Part shown: positions 8,391-34,006 of the stretch, in pieces
How the letters are laid out: each line of letters starts with the position of its first letter
Position numbering within the stretch: the stretch's first letter is position 1
Assembly: GCA_001604035.1 (NCBI GenBank)
Contig: LVAK01000142.1
Span: forward strand, 1 to 34,461
Reading direction: 5' to 3'
DNA length: 34,461 nucleotides
Source: Clostridiales bacterium Firm_05
GTDB taxonomy: Bacteria; Bacillota; Clostridia; Oscillospirales; Ruminococcaceae
Program-made: the position numbers and the translations under genes
The notes under the pieces: generated by a model
The model's database searches: none
What the model saw: only the letters and a program-made list of their open reading frames with translations
Told to the model about the DNA's origin: nothing

Positions 8391-8742
8391 GGGGGTGATT
8401 TGGTTTCGACAGGCTATGAATGGTACTGGAAACACGGGCATGATACCGCCTTACGGGTCAACAAAAAGAACTGACGAAGACAACATCTACGGCGAACTCA
8501 AGGCGGCTTAATTGCGCCTCGCTCCGAAACGACGGACCTGCCAGCCGGTAACCGTATGAGGATCAGAGAATGACTGGTTGATTGGCTTCGGGCCAGCTGC
8601 TCTTGTCCGTTCACAGTCCAACGAACGGACTGGTGGAACCGGATATCCCCTTGAGCGGCATCTCTATAAACTGCCTATCGTGTAAGAATTTCCAGTATTT
8701 GTCGTAGTTTGGACACGGGTTCGATCCCCGTCACCTCCACCA
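8391..8742 (+). ncRNA. ssrA: tmRNA (ssrA)
   Basis: 5' GGGGGTGATTTGGTTTCGACAGG and 3' GGACACGGGTTCGATCCCCGTCACCTCCACCA form the tRNA-like domain. P2 pairs AATGGTACTGGAAA with TTTCCAGTATTT. Tag ORF ...TDEDNIYGELKAA-TAA. Confidence 0.92.
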
Positions 8743-11298: not shown

Positions 11299-11398
11299 GC
11301 GGACGGGTATCAAGTACCCGTCAAGTAAAGAAACCGTTGATTTGCTTTAATTACAGACAATTTGAAAAGAAATAATTAAAGCCGAATCAACTAATACG
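11299..11398 (+). ncRNA. Non-coding cassette with two strong hairpins between repeated linkers
   Basis: GACGGGTA-TCAAG-TACCCGTC and TTGATT-TG-CTTTAATTA ... TAATTAAAG-CCG-AATCAA, flanked on both sides by CTAAAGGAGCGG. Confidence 0.5.
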
Positions 11399-23487: not shown

Positions 23488-23860
23488 GTGGTGGAGATCC
23501 ACAGCACAGCACATGTGGCGGACGTTCTTCGCTCTGAAACGCAAGTTCGATGATGCCGGTACAAATGTTGTTCCGATCGTGTTTAACATGAAAAACATGA
23601 GCGATTCAGACAGGAAGATCTACGATATCTGTAACCGGATTTTCACAGATGAGTTTGTAAAAACAGACCAGGATATCCTGCAGATGTACTTCACGTCCAG
23701 GTGGGGTGATGACCTGTATGCTGTGGAGGATTACAGCCTGAAGCACAATGTACCTACCCGGGTGATCTGGATTGTCATCCGCCGCGCAAACCGTCTCGTC
23801 ATGGAGGAGATAGGACTACTCGACAGAAAGGAGAGTGCAGACAGTAATGCCGATACTTGA
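23474..23860 (+). CDS. Hypothetical protein
   Basis: MKSIEWWRSTAQHMWRTFFALKRKFDDAGTNVVPIVFNMKNMSDSDRKIYDICNRIF. Confidence 0.6.
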   Translation: MKSIEWWRSTAQHMWRTFFALKRKFDDAGTNVVPIVFNMKNMSDSDRKIYDICNRIFTDEFVKTDQDILQMYFTSRWGDDLYAVEDYSLKHNVPTRVIWIVIRRANRLVMEEIGLLDRKESADSNADT

Positions 23861-25631
23861 CATCATCGTCACGCATTACAATGAACCATGGAACGTTGGA
23901 AAAAAGTTTTTTGACATGCTGGCCATGCAGCGCACAGTGGACTTCTCTTCCATCCGGGTGATCCTGGTACAGGACGGAAAAGAAGACGGTTTCGCCTGGG
24001 GCCAGCTGATGAACGGGTATCCTTATCAGATCAAGGTCGTCTCGATCGACCACGCAGGACCTGCAGCCGCACGGAATGCCGGCCTGAAGATAGCAACCGC
24101 AGACTGGGTGATGTTCTGTGACTTTGACGACATGTTCTCGGACGTCGCGTCACTGTGTGCGATCATGCAGGTACTCCCGACAGACGACGCCGACATCATC
24201 TGGATGAAGTCATACCGGGAGGAACGTGTGCGCGCCACAAAGCAGGACATCAAGGGTGTGTTCCTGAACTGCCTGAGTGAGAACTTCCAGTACACCTTCG
24301 GGAAAATGTACCGCCGGTCCGCACTGTACGAGCACAACATCCAGTTCAATACCAACCTGCCGTACGAGTATGAGAATGCGTTCAACCACCTGGCGCTCAC
24401 GGTGATCCCGCCCTTCCGGGTGCTGCAGCTGACAGTCGGCTTCATCCCGTACGTCAAGACCCTGCGAAAGGACAGCTACACCACGAATCCGCACACCGTC
24501 AACGAACGTATCAATGCAATGTACTGGCGTGACGTATATCTCACGAACGAGTACAGGTCACGGGGCCTGCAGAATGCGTACAAGGACATGGTCGCCGAGA
24601 CAGTGTTCGACATGTACTACATGCTCAACACGAAACCAGCGATCCGGGCACTGCGTCCGCTCACGATCTCATTCACGAGGTACTATGAGGAAAACTGCGA
24701 GGCATTCTGGCAGATGAATCCTTCCAACCTCGAGGTGATCATGGATAACTGCATCAATAAGATGCTCGGCACGGTACAGAACCTGTACAACTACAATTCG
24801 ATCGAGGCGGAACCACCATTTGACGGGCTGGAAAAGGTCCAGGCATGGCTAAACGATCTGGACGTCGACACGGACCACGATCCGCAGCCGGTACAGGCAG
24901 GTAAGTACACGGGACCGCGCGTCGTCATCTACTGCGGGACGTACAACACCTATCTGAACATGCTCACATCGGCAAAGTCACTGCTATCCCACACCCAGGT
25001 CGATAAGATCTACTTCCTCACGGAGGATGACGTCTTCCCATATGAGATCCCGGACATTATCGAGAACATCAACGTGAAGAACCAGGAAATCTTCCCGGCA
25101 GACGGCCCGAATTACAATAACGTCTGGTCCTATATGTGCATGATGCGCGCCGCATTCCCGAGCATGTTCCCACAGTACACCCGCGCACTGTCCCTGGACA
25201 TCGATATCATCGTGAACGAGGACATCGGGCAGCTGTGGGATCTGGACCTCACGGATTACTACTTCGCCGGTGTGCCTGAACCATGCAGGCAGAAGACGTC
25301 CGAGGATCCGGTGTACTGTAACTTCGGTGTCATCATGATGAACCTCGAAAAGATCCGGAATGACGAGAAGGATCTCGAGGTCATGAAGATGCTCAACACC
25401 TCACGCCTCGGCTGCCCGGAACAGGATGCCTTCAATAAGGTCTGCGCACATCACATCCTCGCACTGCCTCCGGACTATAACTACACACCTTTCAGTCACA
25501 TCACCGGCGAACCTGAGCACGAGATCATCACCCACTACGCCGGATTGAAGTACTGGAAACACTTCCGCCCCGTCCGAGAGTACGCCGGGAAGGAATGGAA
25601 CGAAATCATGAACAGGAGGATCCAGGAATGA
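23847..25631 (+). CDS. Two-domain glycosyltransferase: GT2-like N-terminus and GT8-like C-terminus
   Basis: N: MPILDIIVTHYNEPWNVGKKFFDML...SIDHAGPAAARNAGLKIATADWVMFCDFDDMF. C: YCGTYNTYLNMLTSAKSLLSHTQVDKIYFLTEDD...ALSLDIDIIVNEDIGQLWDLDL...NFGVIMMNLEKIR...CPEQDAFNKV. Confidence 0.8.
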   Translation: MPILDIIVTHYNEPWNVGKKFFDMLAMQRTVDFSSIRVILVQDGKEDGFAWGQLMNGYPYQIKVVSIDHAGPAAARNAGLKIATADWVMFCDFDDMFSDVASLCAIMQVLPTDDADIIWMKSYREERVRATKQDIKGVFLNCLSENFQYTFGKMYRRSALYEHNIQFNTNLPYEYENAFNHLALTVIPPFRVLQLTVGFIPYVKTLRKDSYTTNPHTVNERINAMYWRDVYLTNEYRSRGLQNAYKDMVAETVFDMYYMLNTKPAIRALRPLTISFTRYYEENCEAFWQMNPSNLEVIMDNCINKMLGTVQNLYNYNSIEAEPPFDGLEKVQAWLNDLDVDTDHDPQPVQAGKYTGPRVVIYCGTYNTYLNMLTSAKSLLSHTQVDKIYFLTEDDVFPYEIPDIIENINVKNQEIFPADGPNYNNVWSYMCMMRAAFPSMFPQYTRALSLDIDIIVNEDIGQLWDLDLTDYYFAGVPEPCRQKTSEDPVYCNFGVIMMNLEKIRNDEKDLEVMKMLNTSRLGCPEQDAFNKVCAHHILALPPDYNYTPFSHITGEPEHEIITHYAGLKYWKHFRPVREYAGKEWNEIMNRRIQE

Positions 25632-27218: not shown

Positions 27219-27407
27219 TTAATCCTCCTTGTTGTCGGTGGCAGCCAGGTCCTTCCTGACCAGCTGCCGTAGGTAGTCTTGCTTGGACGGGACGGAGTCG
27301 AGCTTCGCGATCACGTCCGCATCCGTGTTGATGTTGAGCTTCAGATGGTAAAACCTGCAGTGTGCGGAGTCGTACTTCCGCTGGGCAATGGTAGAACTCT
27401 TGGGCAT
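27219..27407 (-). CDS. Small RHH-like protein
   Basis: MPKSSTIAQRKYDSAHCRFYHLKLNINTDADVIAKLDSVPSKQDYLRQLVRKDLAA resembles short mobile-element ribbon-helix-helix proteins. Confidence 0.65.
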   Translation of the reverse strand: MPKSSTIAQRKYDSAHCRFYHLKLNINTDADVIAKLDSVPSKQDYLRQLVRKDLAATDNKED

Positions 27408-27666: not shown

Positions 27667-28416
27667 TCACACAGCCTTCCGGTATGCGGAAAGGTCGGTC
27701 CAGTAGTTGATCAGACGGTTGATCTCGTCGTCGGGGTACATGTACAGCTCATACCGGTGCAGATCGGCACCGTCCCGGAGATAACCCATGCCTCTTCCGG
27801 CTTTTTTGGGGTCAGGAAGGGCCTCGCAGCCAGTGGCAGCGATAAGATACCGGGACTGGGATGCCGTAGCGGTCCTGAGGCCCAGAATCGTCGGGAAATT
27901 GCACTTCAGAACGGTGGGTATGGTGACTGCCATGACGTTCTGCGTGCAGGCAATGACGTGGACCTTCGCGGCCCGGCCGATCTGTGCCAGGCGCTGCAGC
28001 GGAGGCAGGGCCTGGTTCTTCTGTGATACCATCAGGTCAGCGAGCTCGTCGACGATGACATACAGGTCCCGGCCGGAATATTCCCGGACGCCGGCACGCT
28101 GCATCTCGGTGAACCTGCGCTCAGTCTCGTCCAGGGCATAGTACAGCGCGTCGATCATGTCGCCGGGCTCGCATGCATACCGGACGGTGTGAGGCAGCTT
28201 CTTGTACTGGACCAGCTCTACCTTCTTGGGATCCAGCAGCACAAAACCGCACTCAGACGGCAGCTTGGTGGCCAGAAGAGAGTAGATGATCCCGTTGACG
28301 GTTACGCTTTTCCCGGATCCCGTCGCACCCGCGATCAGCAGGTGCGGACGGTCTGCCAGGGCAGAATACAGCCGGAATACCCGGCCTCCCGGTGTGGAAA
28401 CAAGGGTCGTGCTCAT
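27667..28416 (-). CDS. Truncated FtsK/SpoIIIE-type DNA translocase ATPase
   Basis: RPHLLIAGATGSGKSVTVNGIIYSLL (Walker A), DLYVIVDELADLM (Walker B), LQRLAQIGRAAKVHVIACTQNVMAVTIPTVLKCNFPTILGLRT. Confidence 0.92.
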   Translation of the reverse strand: MSTTLVSTPGGRVFRLYSALADRPHLLIAGATGSGKSVTVNGIIYSLLATKLPSECGFVLLDPKKVELVQYKKLPHTVRYACEPGDMIDALYYALDETERRFTEMQRAGVREYSGRDLYVIVDELADLMVSQKNQALPPLQRLAQIGRAAKVHVIACTQNVMAVTIPTVLKCNFPTILGLRTATASQSRYLIAATGCEALPDPKKAGRGMGYLRDGADLHRYELYMYPDDEINRLINYWTDLSAYRKAV

Positions 28417-28691: not shown

Positions 28692-28707
28692 GTTATTTCC
28701 TCCTTCT

Positions 28708-28763
28708 CCAGCACCTGGTGCTGGCTACGAGCGCCGGAGCCCGGCGCCCGTGTGCCAGGATCA
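28708..28763 (-). ncRNA. Intercistronic structured RNA element A
   Basis: UGA-UCCUGGC-AC-ACGGGCGCCGG-GCU-CCGGCGCUCGU-A-GCCAGCACCAGGUGCUGG. Confidence 0.6.
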
Positions 28764-29102
28764 GACGATCTCGATGGTGATTCCCCAGTTCCGCCTGTAA
28801 TCCCTGATCTTGTCAAGGATATGGTAGTTGATCTGGTCGTTTTCACCGATCTCATACGCGACCTCGATACCCCAGTCGTCGTCACCTTCGTCGGACCATT
28901 TGCTTTCCAGGATGAACTGGTCGCATCCGAACAGTTTGCCCCGACGGATCCGGACCTGCCGGTGCCGCTTTGCGGGGTCTACGATCTCGAATGCCTCGCA
29001 GTACCTGGCGTCGATGATCCTTCCGAGGCCGTACGTTTCGAGGATCTGCTCCTCGCTGGTAGCCTCGAGTTCCAAGGTGACTGTGAAAGTCCTCTTGTCC
29101 AT
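28761..29102 (-). CDS. Hypothetical protein
   Basis: 113 aa: MDKRTFTVTLELEATSEEQILETYGLGRIIDARYCEAFEIVDPAKRHRQVRIRRG. Confidence 0.65.
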   Translation of the reverse strand: MDKRTFTVTLELEATSEEQILETYGLGRIIDARYCEAFEIVDPAKRHRQVRIRRGKLFGCDQFILESKWSDEGDDDWGIEVAYEIGENDQINYHILDKIRDYRRNWGITIEIV

Positions 29103-29120
29103 GTTTTTCCCTCGCTTTCT

Positions 29121-29176
29121 TCAGCGTCTGGCGCTGACTACGGGATCTCCGGCGGAGGTCCCGTGTGTCAATGTCA
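29121..29176 (-). ncRNA. Intercistronic structured RNA element B
   Basis: UGAC-AUUGAC-AC-ACGGGACCUCC-GCC-GGAGAUCCCGU-A-GUCAGCGCCAGACGCUGA; here it lies 10 nt past the stop codon. Confidence 0.6.
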
Positions 29177-29186
29177 GATGTTACTG

Positions 29187-29456
29187 TTACAGTTTGATGT
29201 TCCGCTCGTTCATCCAGAATAGTGCGTCCCACAGGGCATCCTGCCCCGGGATCGTCAGCTCATCGAAGATGTCCGCGTGTTTGCCAGCGTCGAAGTAGTC
29301 TCCGAGCATCTCAAACAGGTCGTCCTGCGGTACGGGAAACTCCATGTGGTCCTGTTCCTCCATGGTGAACGTGTTCCCGATGAACGTGAACAGGATCCGG
29401 TCTCCGTCCCGGTCAAGGATGGTGTCACCCTTGTTGTTGTGTGTAAAGGTTCTCAT
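29187..29456 (-). CDS. Hypothetical protein
   Basis: MRTFTHNNKGDTILDRDGDRILFTFIGNTFTMEEQDHMEFPVPQDDLFEML. Confidence 0.65.
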   Translation of the reverse strand: MRTFTHNNKGDTILDRDGDRILFTFIGNTFTMEEQDHMEFPVPQDDLFEMLGDYFDAGKHADIFDELTIPGQDALWDALFWMNERNIKL

Positions 29457-29469
29457 GCTTCCACTCCTC

Positions 29470-29745
29470 TCAGAACATTGCATAGTACTCGTCCGGCATG
29501 TACTCGAGTTCGTACGCGCCGGTCTCGTCGGGTTCGATGTCGTCAACGGAGTTGATTATCTCCTTCAGCAACAGGTCCGGGGCGAGATCTCCTTCCCCTG
29601 TTGTACTGTCGAAGACCGTCACGCAGGTTCCTTCACCTCCACAGACCAGATTTCCATGGTCGTCCAGCACGTCCGGAGCGGGTGTGTACTGAATGATCCG
29701 GAGATGGTCGTCCGGGTGCTTTGTGATCCAATCATAGATCGTCAA
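29470..29745 (-). CDS. Hypothetical protein
   Basis: MTIYDWITKHPDDHLRIIQYTPAPDVLDDHGNLVCGGEGTCVTVFDSTTGEGDLAPDLL. Confidence 0.65.
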   Translation of the reverse strand: MTIYDWITKHPDDHLRIIQYTPAPDVLDDHGNLVCGGEGTCVTVFDSTTGEGDLAPDLLLKEIINSVDDIEPDETGAYELEYMPDEYYAMF

Positions 29746-29766
29746 GCTGATTACCTCCTTTTTCCT

Positions 29767-29822
29767 TCGGTGTCTGGCACCGACTACGAGCGACCCGGTG
29801 AGTCGCCCGTCTGTCGAAGTCA
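29767..29822 (-). ncRNA. Intercistronic structured RNA element C
   Basis: UGAC-UUCGAC-AG-ACGGGCGACUC-ACC-GGGUCGCUCGU-A-GUCGGUGCCAGACACCGA. Confidence 0.6.
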
Positions 29823-30002
29823 GATAATGCCCATCTCCCGGAACTTCCTGAGCAGGCCGTATCGTTTGCCCAGCCGGGTGAAGTGCTCCACACCACGCTG
29901 GCGCTCGTTGATCACGGCCTCTTCAGATGCGGCATTGAGGTACGCCTTGAATTCTCTGGCCGCCTCAATGAGGACCGCTTTCCGCCTCTGGTAATCAGTC
30001 AT
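29820..30002 (-). CDS. Small hypothetical protein
   Basis: MTDYQRRKAVLIEAAREFKAYLNAASEEAVINERQRGVEHFTRLGKRYGLL. Confidence 0.6.
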   Translation of the reverse strand: MTDYQRRKAVLIEAAREFKAYLNAASEEAVINERQRGVEHFTRLGKRYGLLRKFREMGII

Positions 30003-30017
30003 GCTTTCACACCTTCC

Positions 30018-30314
30018 TCACTGATAGTTGAAGTAGTAGTCGCACGTGTCCACGGTGATCCCGGTGAACGGGTCCGTGTATTCGCCTTCGATTACCCACA
30101 TCACGGGGTCGTCGCGGATCCACAGGTCGTAGGGCTGAACGTCCCGGTCAAAGCGCTTTACGAGCCAGTTATAGACGTCGTATAGGTCGTCCCGGCGGAG
30201 GCCCCACTCGTGGTTCCCGGATACCTTCACGTGAAGCGTGACGCGCGGGTCCTTCACCCGGCGTGCGTCCACGGAACCGTATCCCTGCCAATGCTTGAGC
30301 TTCACAGAACTCAC
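30018..30314 (-). CDS. Hypothetical protein
   Basis: 98 aa: MSSVKLKHWQGYGSVDARRVKDPRVTLHVKVSGNHEWGLRRDDLYDVYNWLVKRFDRD. Confidence 0.65.
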   Translation of the reverse strand: MSSVKLKHWQGYGSVDARRVKDPRVTLHVKVSGNHEWGLRRDDLYDVYNWLVKRFDRDVQPYDLWIRDDPVMWVIEGEYTDPFTGITVDTCDYYFNYQ

Positions 30315-30338
30315 TCCTTTCCTCGTAGGTGCCTACCT

Positions 30339-30384
30339 GTCTCAACCTATCCTATCACAATTTCAAGGATAGGTCAATACCTAT
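30339..30384 (-). promoter_or_regulatory. Putative internal leftward promoter with operator-like inverted repeat
   Basis: Minus strand TTGACC-17 nt-TAGGAT, overlapping the inverted repeat CCTATCC...GGATAGG. Confidence 0.5.
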
Positions 30385-30387
30385 TTT

Positions 30388-30437
30388 CTGGCACCGACTA
30401 CGAGGTCCGCACGAGCGGGCCCCGTCTGTCGAAGTCA
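30388..30437 (-). ncRNA. Intercistronic structured RNA element D (3' hairpin truncated)
   Basis: UGAC-UUCGAC-AG-ACGGGGCCCGC-UCGU-GCGGACCUCGU-A-GUCGGUGCCAG, running into the 30339-30384 promoter. Confidence 0.55.
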
Positions 30438-30737
30438 GTGCATGCCGTGGGTAGCGGCCTTCCAGAGCAGGTCGTAGGCCTGCATGAACAGGTCGTACAT
30501 TCCCTGCACAGCGTCCGCGTGCTCCTGGTCGTCGATCAGTGGGATCTGGCGCGCGCGGGAGCGGATTTGATCCAGCGCTTGATGCGCAAGACTGTACTTG
30601 CTGATCATTTCGACCTTGTTCGATAAGGTCTGCCTCTTTGCCGCTGGGAGGTTCATCTCCTCCGTTAGCGACATCTTCGGGATCCCGTACATCTCAGACG
30701 AGTCGTACGTAAGGATCGGCTTGACTGTGTCAATCAC
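30435..30737 (-). CDS. Hypothetical protein (GTG start)
   Basis: (M)IDTVKPILTYDSSEMYGIPKMSLTEEMNLPAAKRQTLSNKVEMISKYSLAHQALDQIRSRARQ; RBS AAAGGA. Confidence 0.6.
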   Translation of the reverse strand: MIDTVKPILTYDSSEMYGIPKMSLTEEMNLPAAKRQTLSNKVEMISKYSLAHQALDQIRSRARQIPLIDDQEHADAVQGMYDLFMQAYDLLWKAATHGMH

Positions 30738-30787
30738 AGCAGTGTCCTTTCTGCCGGGATACGAGGCCTCCCGGCCGGGCCGTCGTC

Positions 30788-31180
30788 TTACTGTCCGCAG
30801 TACTCCATCCACACCCGGCCATGTCTCCGGCCTTCCGGAGGCACGAACGGAGTGCAGGGAATGACGTCCTTCAGGTGGTACAGCCATTTCACTTTCGTGT
30901 CCGGCTGCCAGTCATAGGACGATCCGCAGGGCACCCATGTGGCCCAGAGGTACTCTTCCCAGGTCTCGCGATCGCGGACCTCGACGATCTCGTCGATCAC
31001 GGCGTAGCACTTCACGACCGGGCGACCGTTGCCGGTCTCCGCGATCAGGATGGGCTCGCCGAGGAACCGGCCGAGAGTGTTCCGGGTCCGGGTCTCGTAC
31101 TGTTTGAGTCCGCCGATGATATCATCCACAAAGGGTTCCTTCTGGCAGTTAATGAAGATGATGGGCAGCAATTCGTTCAC
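30788..31180 (-). CDS. Hypothetical protein, ASCH-like
   Basis: LPIIFINCQKEPFVDDIIGGLKQYETRTRNTLGRFLGEPILIAETGNGRPVVKCYAVIDEIVEV. Confidence 0.55.
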   Translation of the reverse strand: MNELLPIIFINCQKEPFVDDIIGGLKQYETRTRNTLGRFLGEPILIAETGNGRPVVKCYAVIDEIVEVRDRETWEEYLWATWVPCGSSYDWQPDTKVKWLYHLKDVIPCTPFVPPEGRRHGRVWMEYCGQ

Positions 31181-31189
31181 CTGCTTTCT

Positions 31190-31245
31190 CCGGCGTCTGG
31201 CGCCGGCTACGATGCCCGGGATCCGGGCACCGTCTGCCGAAGTCA
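31190..31245 (-). ncRNA. Intercistronic structured RNA element F
   Basis: UGAC-UUCGGC-AG-ACGGUGCCCGG-AUC-CCGGGCAUCGU-A-GCCGGCGCCAGACGCCGG. Confidence 0.62.
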
Positions 31246-31539
31246 GCTTGCCTTGAACCACTTGTCGTAGTCCGAGCATGCACAGTATCCAGCGGCGGCC
31301 TCAAAGAATTCCTTCGCCTTCCGGAGCTTGCGCTTCCACGTCTTGTCCTCTGGTGCATCAACTTTTACGACCGCGTTTTCGCTGTAGATCTCGACTTCAT
31401 AGTCCAGAACCTCGGCGAATTTCTTCCGGCCTTCACCCGTGAGCTCGAGCGGTCCGCAGAATGCGATGCCGAGCTCCTCGCAGACGTCGTCGTAGACGTC
31501 GATGTCGATGTCCATCCGGATAAACTCCTTTACTGTCAT
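31243..31539 (-). CDS. Hypothetical protein
   Basis: 98 aa: MTVKEFIRMDIDIDVYDDVCEELGIAFCGPLELTGEGRKKFAEVLDYEVEIYSE. Confidence 0.65.
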   Translation of the reverse strand: MTVKEFIRMDIDIDVYDDVCEELGIAFCGPLELTGEGRKKFAEVLDYEVEIYSENAVVKVDAPEDKTWKRKLRKAKEFFEAAAGYCACSDYDKWFKAS

Positions 31540-31561
31540 TGCTTTTTTCCCTCTCTTTCTT

Positions 31562-31622
31562 CAGTGCTCATGGCACTGACTACGACGTCCGGAGCGGGTC
31601 CGGGCGCCGTCTGTCAATGTCA
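31562..31622 (-). ncRNA. Intercistronic structured RNA element G
   Basis: UGAC-AUUGAC-AG-ACGGCGCCCGGA-CCCGC-UCCGGACGUCGU-A-GUCAGUGCCAUGAGCACUG. Confidence 0.6.
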
Positions 31623-32126
31623 TTTGATTACGATCATGCCGTGCTGGATTGATCCGCAGTCGAAGAACCGGGTGTAGTACTCGAGCGGTTGATTCCGCTG
31701 GTACTGATCCGGACCGGTCTGCCGGCCAACTCCGGAGCAGTCGCCTTCGTAGACTGTGATGTAGGCCGTACCGCCTGTCTGCCGAACGACGCTGGATATC
31801 TCGAGAGCGATCCGGCGGATCGTCTGGTCGTCGTCGATGACGTTCAGTACGTTACTGCAGACGACGTCCACCGGGACGCGGTTCTGCATGGCCCAGCTCA
31901 CAGCCTGAAGCGTGGCCTCGTTCGTATCGTCCGGCTGGTTGTAGGGGTCGTACGGGAGATAGCTCATCTTGGCGGCCACCTCCACAACGTTCCGGATGTG
32001 GTCGATGTACTTACCGCATCCATAGTCCAGCAGGATTCCTCCGAAGCGGGCCGGGAACTTCCTGTACACGGCCGGCAGGCGCCGGGAGTTGACCGACGTT
32101 CCTGCGCTTGTGTATGTCTGTGACAT
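31620..32126 (-). CDS. SAM-dependent methyltransferase-like protein
   Basis: GGILLDYGCGKYIDHIRNVVEV (motif I), VPVDVVCSNVLNVIDDD, TAYITVYEGD. Confidence 0.72.
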   Translation of the reverse strand: MSQTYTSAGTSVNSRRLPAVYRKFPARFGGILLDYGCGKYIDHIRNVVEVAAKMSYLPYDPYNQPDDTNEATLQAVSWAMQNRVPVDVVCSNVLNVIDDDQTIRRIALEISSVVRQTGGTAYITVYEGDCSGVGRQTGPDQYQRNQPLEYYTRFFDCGSIQHGMIVIK

Positions 32127-32143
32127 TCTCTTTTCCTCCTTCT

Positions 32144-32201
32144 TCAGTGCTTGGCACTGACTACGGGATCCGCCTGGAGCGGGTCCCGTCTGTCAATGTC
32201 A
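32144..32201 (-). ncRNA. Intercistronic structured RNA element H
   Basis: UGAC-AUUGAC-AG-ACGGGACCCGC-UCCAG-GCGGAUCCCGU-A-GUCAGUGCCAAGCACUGA, followed by AGAAGGAGG. Confidence 0.62.
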
Positions 32202-32450: not shown

Positions 32451-32554
32451 GACTGTATACCTCCCTGCTTTTTTAGGGGCCTTGCCCCTGTCCTACGTCC
32501 GCCGGAGCGGGCGCAGGACAGGAGGCCCGCCGGAGCGGGCCGGTCCTGGGCTGG

Positions 32555-32830: not shown

Positions 32831-32932
32831 GTTTTTTTCCTCCTCATTTTTTGATTAGGGGTCTCGCCCCTGGTCCAGGTCCGCCGGAGCGGGCCCGGAG
32901 CAGGAGCGGCCGGAGCGAGTCCGGCCGGCCTA

Positions 32933-33978: not shown

Positions 33979-34006
33979 ATTATAACAGGTTTTTTTGATA
34001 TGTCAA
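33979..34006 (-). promoter_or_regulatory. Near-consensus sigma-A promoter for the leftward operon
   Basis: Minus strand TTGACA-16 nt-TATAAT. Confidence 0.85.

Follow-up and report, generated by a model that had tools for sequence, protein, structure and literature searches.

Phage operons linked to rumen bacteria carry a repeated intercistronic RNA element with two mutually exclusive folds

The 34,461-bp contig LVAK01000142.1 of Clostridiales bacterium Firm_05, which was analysed over its whole length and is called the window below, carries seven copies of a structured RNA element between the genes of a leftward operon. Together with their homologues, these copies make up a new RNA family of about 100 members in phages linked to rumen bacteria. 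Each element runs from the stop codon of one gene to a point shortly ahead of the Shine-Dalgarno (SD) sequence of the next. We read the elements as cis-acting two-state RNAs at cistron boundaries that would insulate independently translated gene cassettes, and give this reading a probability of roughly 40%. The element probably sets the passage of translation from gene to gene. The window is a contig of a metagenome-type genome assembly of 265 contigs, is also listed in IMG/VR under IMGVR_UViG_2751185649_000001, and is identified as phage DNA by a GP3-type packaging protein, a DUF927 protein, a PDDEXK nuclease, and an FtsK-like translocase. The leftward operon opens with a GP88-family gene, continues with genes for small proteins without Pfam matches, and leads to the FtsK-like gene at 27667-28416. 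All seven elements sit among these small genes, each on the operon (minus) strand (Table 1). A preliminary description of the window had placed them there and read them as a family of intercistronic structured RNAs, and both the folds it described and this interpretation are supported by the present analysis.

The fold is built from three strands and a hairpin. Strand 1 (UGACWUYGRC) pairs with strand 2 (GYCRGYRCCA) to form P1, which contains a nearly invariant A.C mismatch; the preliminary description was right that P1 exists and covaries, but the helix is about 10 bp long and not 5. P2 is the middle hairpin, with a two-base linker and one A standing between it and P1. Strand 2 also pairs with strand 3, directly ahead of the SD, to form P3. 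Because P3 uses the 3' strand of P1, the two helices are mutually exclusive. Their predicted stabilities are balanced, with a mean difference of -0.3 kcal/mol (standard deviation 2.9) over 51 elements, in which the state with P1 and P2 is predicted at -13.7 to -33.7 kcal/mol. When the seven window elements were aligned, 93.1% of the P1 and P2 cells were paired, compared with 80.6 +/- 2.0% in shuffled sequences; nine pairs carried double changes, compared with 3.8 in the shuffles, and all controls in which the alignment was slid failed.

To collect homologues, two covariance models were used, R1 built from the seven window elements and R2 from 53 sequences. R1 gave strong matches in the contigs L017/L050, L063, L095, and L123 (L094 being the window itself). 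Further copies were reached through degenerate patterns, and others in contigs gathered through the FtsK protein without any sequence pattern of the element. With R2, 97 matches were obtained at E <= 0.001 in 42 sources, so that about 90 copies are known beyond the window; these copies are a mix of orthologues and paralogues, the contigs are fragments, and the genes around them were called by a simple script. Searches of whole records placed nearly all matches of a phage within one accessory operon, as in G099 (23.6-28.9 kb), G101 (36.0-39.4 kb), and G105 (26.2-31.8 kb), and a single operon may hold up to about 10 copies. Element-bearing phages fall into three groups with few proteins in common (alpha, which includes the window, beta, and gamma), and the element disappears in related phages once the identity of their FtsK proteins falls below about 55%. 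Within the genome that contains the window, both models match the seven sites only, and among 394 genomes of the order to which the host belongs, R2 detected copies on the window's own contig and nowhere else. A weak R1 match in G048 (E 0.007, among 98 relatives) was regarded as chance and was not recovered by R2. The operon DNA has no match among 50,697 GenBank phage records. The lack of a recognisable RNA family that had been reported for the operon also held: in the part of the window that holds the elements, no Rfam 15 family gives a match at E <= 1, and no Rfam match was found in L174, L175, L176, and L182 at E <= 0.5. One carrier contig belongs to the rumen metagenome-assembled genome RUG095 (uncultured Clostridiales bacterium). 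We take RUG to denote a series of rumen genomes, and the presumed rumen origin of the other contigs is read from their IMG accession series.

The structure is kept in the homologous phages, and the compensatory changes noticed by eye in the window stand out in a test that takes the tree into account. We modelled this test on the R-scape null, using a FastTree tree, Fitch reconstruction, shuffling of substitutions per branch, and a G-test with average product correction (APC); it was applied to 93 non-redundant elements with 200 null sets, so that E-values cannot go below 0.005. The top 18 covarying column pairs are pairs of P1, P2, and P3 plus one pair between strands 1 and 3, and 15 of them reach E <= 0.05 under this tree-keeping null. 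The covariation between strands 1 and 3 is expected, since both pair with strand 2. The alignment was fitted to P1 and P2, and P3 was included in neither model; its covariation is therefore not produced by the alignment, and the competition between P1 and P3 that had been suspected is real. When whole strands were swapped between elements, none of the 1000 trials per helix reached the pairing seen in P1, P2, or P3, and this support also holds for the 24 elements reached through FtsK alone. As in attenuator-type RNAs, the element thus has two mutually exclusive helices with a common strand, both under selection as judged by covariation and balanced energies.

Column triplets that span the three strands are telling. 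The triplet 7:68:88 reads UAU (43 copies) or CGC (38), and 9:66:90 reads GCG (49) or AUA (22); C-G and U-A alternate at 4:71, and the terminal pair 1:74 is U-A (81) or G-C (7). C10-G65 and G8-C67 are nearly invariant, and A11/A64 is mostly A-A with some G-G. The A3.C72 mismatch is present in 91 of the 93 copies and stays even where UGA becomes GGA or GAA, with the partner mostly changing too. The outer part of P2 had been described as fixed (ACGG/CGU), which does not hold beyond the window, as homologues carry, for example, CUGG/UCAU or ACAG/UUGU. At position 7 of P2, the C.A mismatch that had been described for elements B, D, G, and H is seen in 44 of the 93 copies. The CCA that ends strand 2 suggested a tRNA-like or RNase P substrate. 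This candidate was rejected because an unpaired 3' RCCA is not what we found: CCA changes to CCC or CUC along with its 5' partner (UGA to GGA or GAA), indicating that it is paired and not free.

The element is also placed precisely relative to the flanking genes. In 69 of the 97 copies, the element and the upstream stop codon begin at the same base, and this stop codon is UGA in 68. In the remaining copies, the stop codon mostly lies 1-14 nt upstream, with three copies having it 6 nt downstream, and stop codons almost never fall within P2 or P3. The end of P3 is mostly 4-8 nt ahead of the SD core, the core mostly 6-9 nt ahead of the start codon, and the start codon mostly 12-26 nt past P3. Gaps that hold an element have a median length of 73 nt (interquartile range 70-79), whereas the remaining gaps of these operons measure 13 nt at the median, and 71 of 96 are no longer than 25 nt. 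Stop-codon readthrough was considered and rejected, as many copies carry a second in-frame UGA (UGACAUUGA) and each downstream gene comes with an SD and a start codon of its own.

Element presence does not simply follow gene identity. A given gene family may have an element ahead of it in one phage and a gap of -4 to +17 nt in another, and among ortholog pairs the element precedes both members in 24 and only one in 183, a weak enrichment above chance. An element bound to a particular upstream or downstream gene was rejected, the association being weak. The best evidence that the unit of element, gene, and element may behave as a cassette is a 113-aa gene found between elements in both the window and the gamma-group contig L219, which represents a distant phage lineage. 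Homology between the two phages begins around the upstream element and fades past the downstream one, and the elements themselves differ by coordinated, compensatory changes across all three strands. BLASTN comparisons across the operons for recombination breakpoints at elements showed homology too patchy to use, save for this cassette.

In the mechanism that we favour, three alternating strands would act in turn, with strand 1 lying over the upstream stop codon, strand 2 in the centre, and strand 3 just before the SD core. When the stop codon is free of ribosomes, strand 1 would pair with strand 2, and P1 together with P2 would form a long hairpin that starts from the stop codon. Judging from known footprints, a terminating ribosome should cover the stop codon and some 12 nt beyond it, which corresponds here roughly to strand 1 and the linker. 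Its arrival would free strand 2 to pair with strand 3, and when the 15 nt from the stop codon were masked in the folding, the median predicted probability of P3 rose from 0.40 to 0.99. The gap would be folded in both situations with the ribosome-binding site free throughout, so that run-on or re-initiation from the upstream gene would be blocked and a standard entry site left for the next gene, as in a dedicated ribosome termination structure (RTS). Small accessory genes could then be exchanged as cassettes without upsetting their neighbours. In a synthetic E. coli operon, stable structures past the stop codon lower re-initiation, and structures after stop codons are enriched where gaps measure 25 nt or more (Chemla et al. 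2020, PMC7518266); our elements likewise lie in gaps of 25 nt or more and not in short ones. In E. coli gene pairs, re-initiation is almost abolished at 38 nt (PMC10666635). We favour a two-state boundary element acting as an insulator because the constant strong structure before the ribosome-binding site matches RTS (PMC7518266) and because re-initiation has a short reach (PMC10666635). A wider picture, held with slightly more reserve, is that of a ribosome-operated cistron linker in which the stop codon is part of the switch and which could serve as a standard joint for plugging genes in or out, the translation of neighbours being kept separate or graded.

Several observations weigh against insulation as the whole explanation. 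The predicted accessibility of the SD (0.53 vs 0.50), and likewise that of the start codon, is the same whether or not a ribosome occupies the stop codon, so that the folding by itself predicts no change at the downstream site. A model of plain on/off sequestration thus fails, and SD sequestration as the output was ruled out by partition-function folding with strand 1 free or masked. SDs are weaker after elements than at short gaps (-8.8 vs -10.2 kcal/mol, p = 8e-8), which would be unusual for start sites that are fully independent. At least six elements precede a TTGAC promoter-like site and not a ribosome-binding site: an internal promoter comes next after element D, and similar sites come after L174:7151, L175:7034, L176:9935, L219:6811, and L215:588. 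Whether a gene has an element is a weakly conserved trait. Finally, the near-invariant A.C pair and A11/A64 suggest that a specific fold is recognised, and pure insulation would not need one. Insulation alone does not explain the weaker SDs, the elements ahead of promoters, and the conserved non-Watson-Crick positions, and translational coupling and protein binding are serious rivals.

The preliminary description had listed several possible roles. A function in translation at the cistron boundary is now favoured, and antitermination looks unlikely, since no terminator-like site overlaps any window element and what comes after P3 is a purine-rich ribosome-binding site, not a U-run. In a coupling switch, which we consider unlikely, a ribosome at the upstream stop codon would flip P1 to P3 and thereby raise or lower initiation at the next gene, giving proportional expression of the cistrons. 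The position of strand 1 beneath a terminating ribosome and the balance of P1 and P3 would suit such a switch, and the somewhat weaker SDs may need help; however, the SD and AUG are equally accessible in both states, and a gap of about 70 nt is far outside the reported range of re-initiation (PMC10666635). It is similarly doubtful, if again worth serious attention, that a phage, host, or ribosomal protein binds the P1/P2 internal loop with its A.C pair, stabilises P1, and controls many cistrons jointly. The conservation of A3.C72 and A11/A64 in the P1 state argues for this, and the layout, with P1 over an alternative P3, resembles the logic of riboswitches and antiterminators. However, none of the proteins occurs in every element-bearing contig, the most widespread cluster being present in 12 of 22 groups, although these contigs are fragments, and the small protein family found near elements in three lineages looks to the eye like common ribbon-helix-helix DNA-binding proteins and is encoded outside the element-bearing part.

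Two further readings are less probable. A hairpin at the stop codon could protect or define the 3' end of the upstream cistron, and elements do persist ahead of genes that are served by a separate promoter (element D, L174:7151, L176:9935, and others), but a role in mRNA processing or 3'-end stability is improbable, as it leaves unexplained the overlap of P1 and P3, the covariation of P3, and the fixed spacing to the next SD. Very improbable is a site acting as DNA, either for recombination or for protein binding, that marks exchangeable cassettes in a layout like that of integron attC. Genes are shuffled between these phages with elements at the borders, one homologous cassette spans element to element, and the conserved A.C mismatches would be G.T wobbles on the opposite strand; for the same reason, wobble usage shows no clear preference for the sense strand. 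Yet three alternative pairings are kept in spite of poor sequence conservation, the orientation is always that of the genes and the position nearly always between stop codon and SD, and P3 holds more G.U than A.C (11 vs 4).

Table 1. Elements and associated features in the leftward operon of the window (R1 scores from the seven-element covariance model)
Feature	Position	Strand	Remarks
Main promoter of the operon (likely)	33979..34006	-	sigma-70-like, TTGACA-16-TATAAT, 12/12 matches
Longer relative, first junction, after GP88 gene	32831..32932	-	constrained folds
Longer relative, second junction	32451..32554	-	P0, P1/P2, and P3 with overlapping strands; constrained folds; weak R1 match, 19.7 bits
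Element H	32132..32201	-	R1 82.9 bits
H, strand 1 (5' side of P1, opens with UGA stop)	32201-32192	-	read from sequence
H, P2	32189-32163	-	read from sequence
H, strand 2 (common to P1 and P3)	32161-32152	-
H, strand 3 (3' side of P3)	32150-32144	-
H, SD	32140-32135	-
H, next AUG	32126-32124	-
Element G	31549..31622	-	opens with UGA stop of 168-aa gene; R1 75.9 bits
Element F	31178..31245	-	opens with UGA stop of gene 31243-31539; R1 80.4 bits
Spacer E	30738..30787	-	different hairpin-rich spacer, ACGGCCC...CGTATCCCGGCAGAAAGG; by eye
Element D	30378..30437	-	P1/P2 kept, P3 lost; R1 59.5 bits
Promoter-like site after element D	30349..30377	-	sigma-70-like, TTGACC-17-TAGGAT
Element C	29755..29822	-	opens with UGA stop of gene 29820-30002; R1 81.3 bits
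Element B	29109..29176	-	R1 80.1 bits
113-aa gene between elements B and A	28761..29102	-	same gene, element-flanked, in gamma-group contig L219
Element A	28696..28763	-	opens with UGA stop of gene 28761-29102; R1 77.3 bits

Close inspection of single junctions adds detail. The upstream gene of element B ends at a UAA 13 nt earlier, and UGA is nonetheless kept at position 1 of the element. At L174:6682-6752, the junction orthologous to that of element F, compensatory changes are found in P2 and P3. The first two operon junctions in the window, L174, L175, and L176 hold spacers of about 100 nt with an extra hairpin (P0). In constrained folding, P1-like and P3-like helices overlap in most of these longer relatives, with two of the eight (both in L175) being less clear, and by structural analogy they appear to share the overlapping-strand design. 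Spacer E, which the preliminary description skipped, has a similar-looking counterpart on the operon (reverse) strand of L181 around 11313-11360, and the two possibly represent a third type of spacer. In the two related phages L177 (8798-8869 and 11196-11271) and L178 (7897-7949 and 9951-10036), we observed a recurring intercistronic inverted repeat, TGTAGTAANATNTTACTACA, followed by a short hairpin and an SD; it may be an operator or promoter.

Other features of these phages were recorded on the way. A small protein without Pfam match (window 27219-27407, minus strand) has 13 homologues near elements in three phage groups; by eye it resembles ribbon-helix-helix proteins and is possibly an operon regulator, encoded close to, but outside, the element-bearing part of the operon. 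Near the packaging gene, the window encodes a large protein in which GT2 and GT8 glycosyltransferase domains are combined (23835-25631, plus strand), with homologues in seven other element-bearing records. The window also encodes a transfer-messenger RNA (tmRNA; 8391-8742, plus strand) with the tag DEDNIYGELKAA, as does the related phage G099 (L200:7879-8229, tag DEEEIYCELKAA); the searched parts of the other phages yielded no tmRNA. The related phage G100 carries a cluster of six tRNA genes (L189:10293-11069, plus strand).

The elements recall several known systems. In trp-type leaders, LicT/RAT antiterminators, and riboswitch expression platforms, pairing of strands 1 and 2 excludes that of 2 and 3, and a ribosome or ligand can decide between them. 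Our elements share this principle with leader attenuators and other two-state switches, but they have no leader peptide or terminator, lie between cistrons, and are repeated. Integron attC sites are structured hairpins with little conserved sequence that lie near stop codons, where cassettes have their 3' end, and they act as folded bottom-strand DNA with RYYYAAC/GTTRRRY core sites for the integrase. The likeness extends to the poor sequence conservation and the position near stop codons; the elements differ in a three-strand pairing that reaches the SD, which suggests that, unlike in attC, the mRNA is the active form.

The closest concepts to this RNA family are the ribosome termination structures and the SAS/ESAS repeats of mycobacteriophages. 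In cluster K mycobacteriophages, SAS and ESAS (Pope et al. 2011, PMC3203893) are likewise repeated between non-structural phage genes, in one orientation and before start codons, but SAS has a fixed sequence of 13 bp, GGGATAGGAGCCC, that includes the SD and is not present at the SDs of the listed elements. The inverted repeats of ESAS do not support RNA pairing, and ESAS follows its gene family between phages (PMC3203893); in our elements, pairing is strongly supported and gene families are followed weakly, as seen in the ratio of ortholog pairs given above. RTS share with the elements a stable structure right after the stop codon, gaps of 25 nt or more, and a proposed role as translational insulators, and differ in being a statistical folding signal without conserved sequence or fold (PMC7518266). 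The elements, in contrast, are one defined family with a conserved architecture, two exclusive states, the stop codon within a helix, and many copies per operon. Insulators of the RTS kind have so far been proposed from folding statistics and a synthetic operon, whereas the elements provide a natural family in which a defined architecture and two states are kept. They offer a directly testable system for the interplay of ribosome termination, re-initiation, and mRNA folding in operons and, possibly, a ready-made part for multi-gene constructs.

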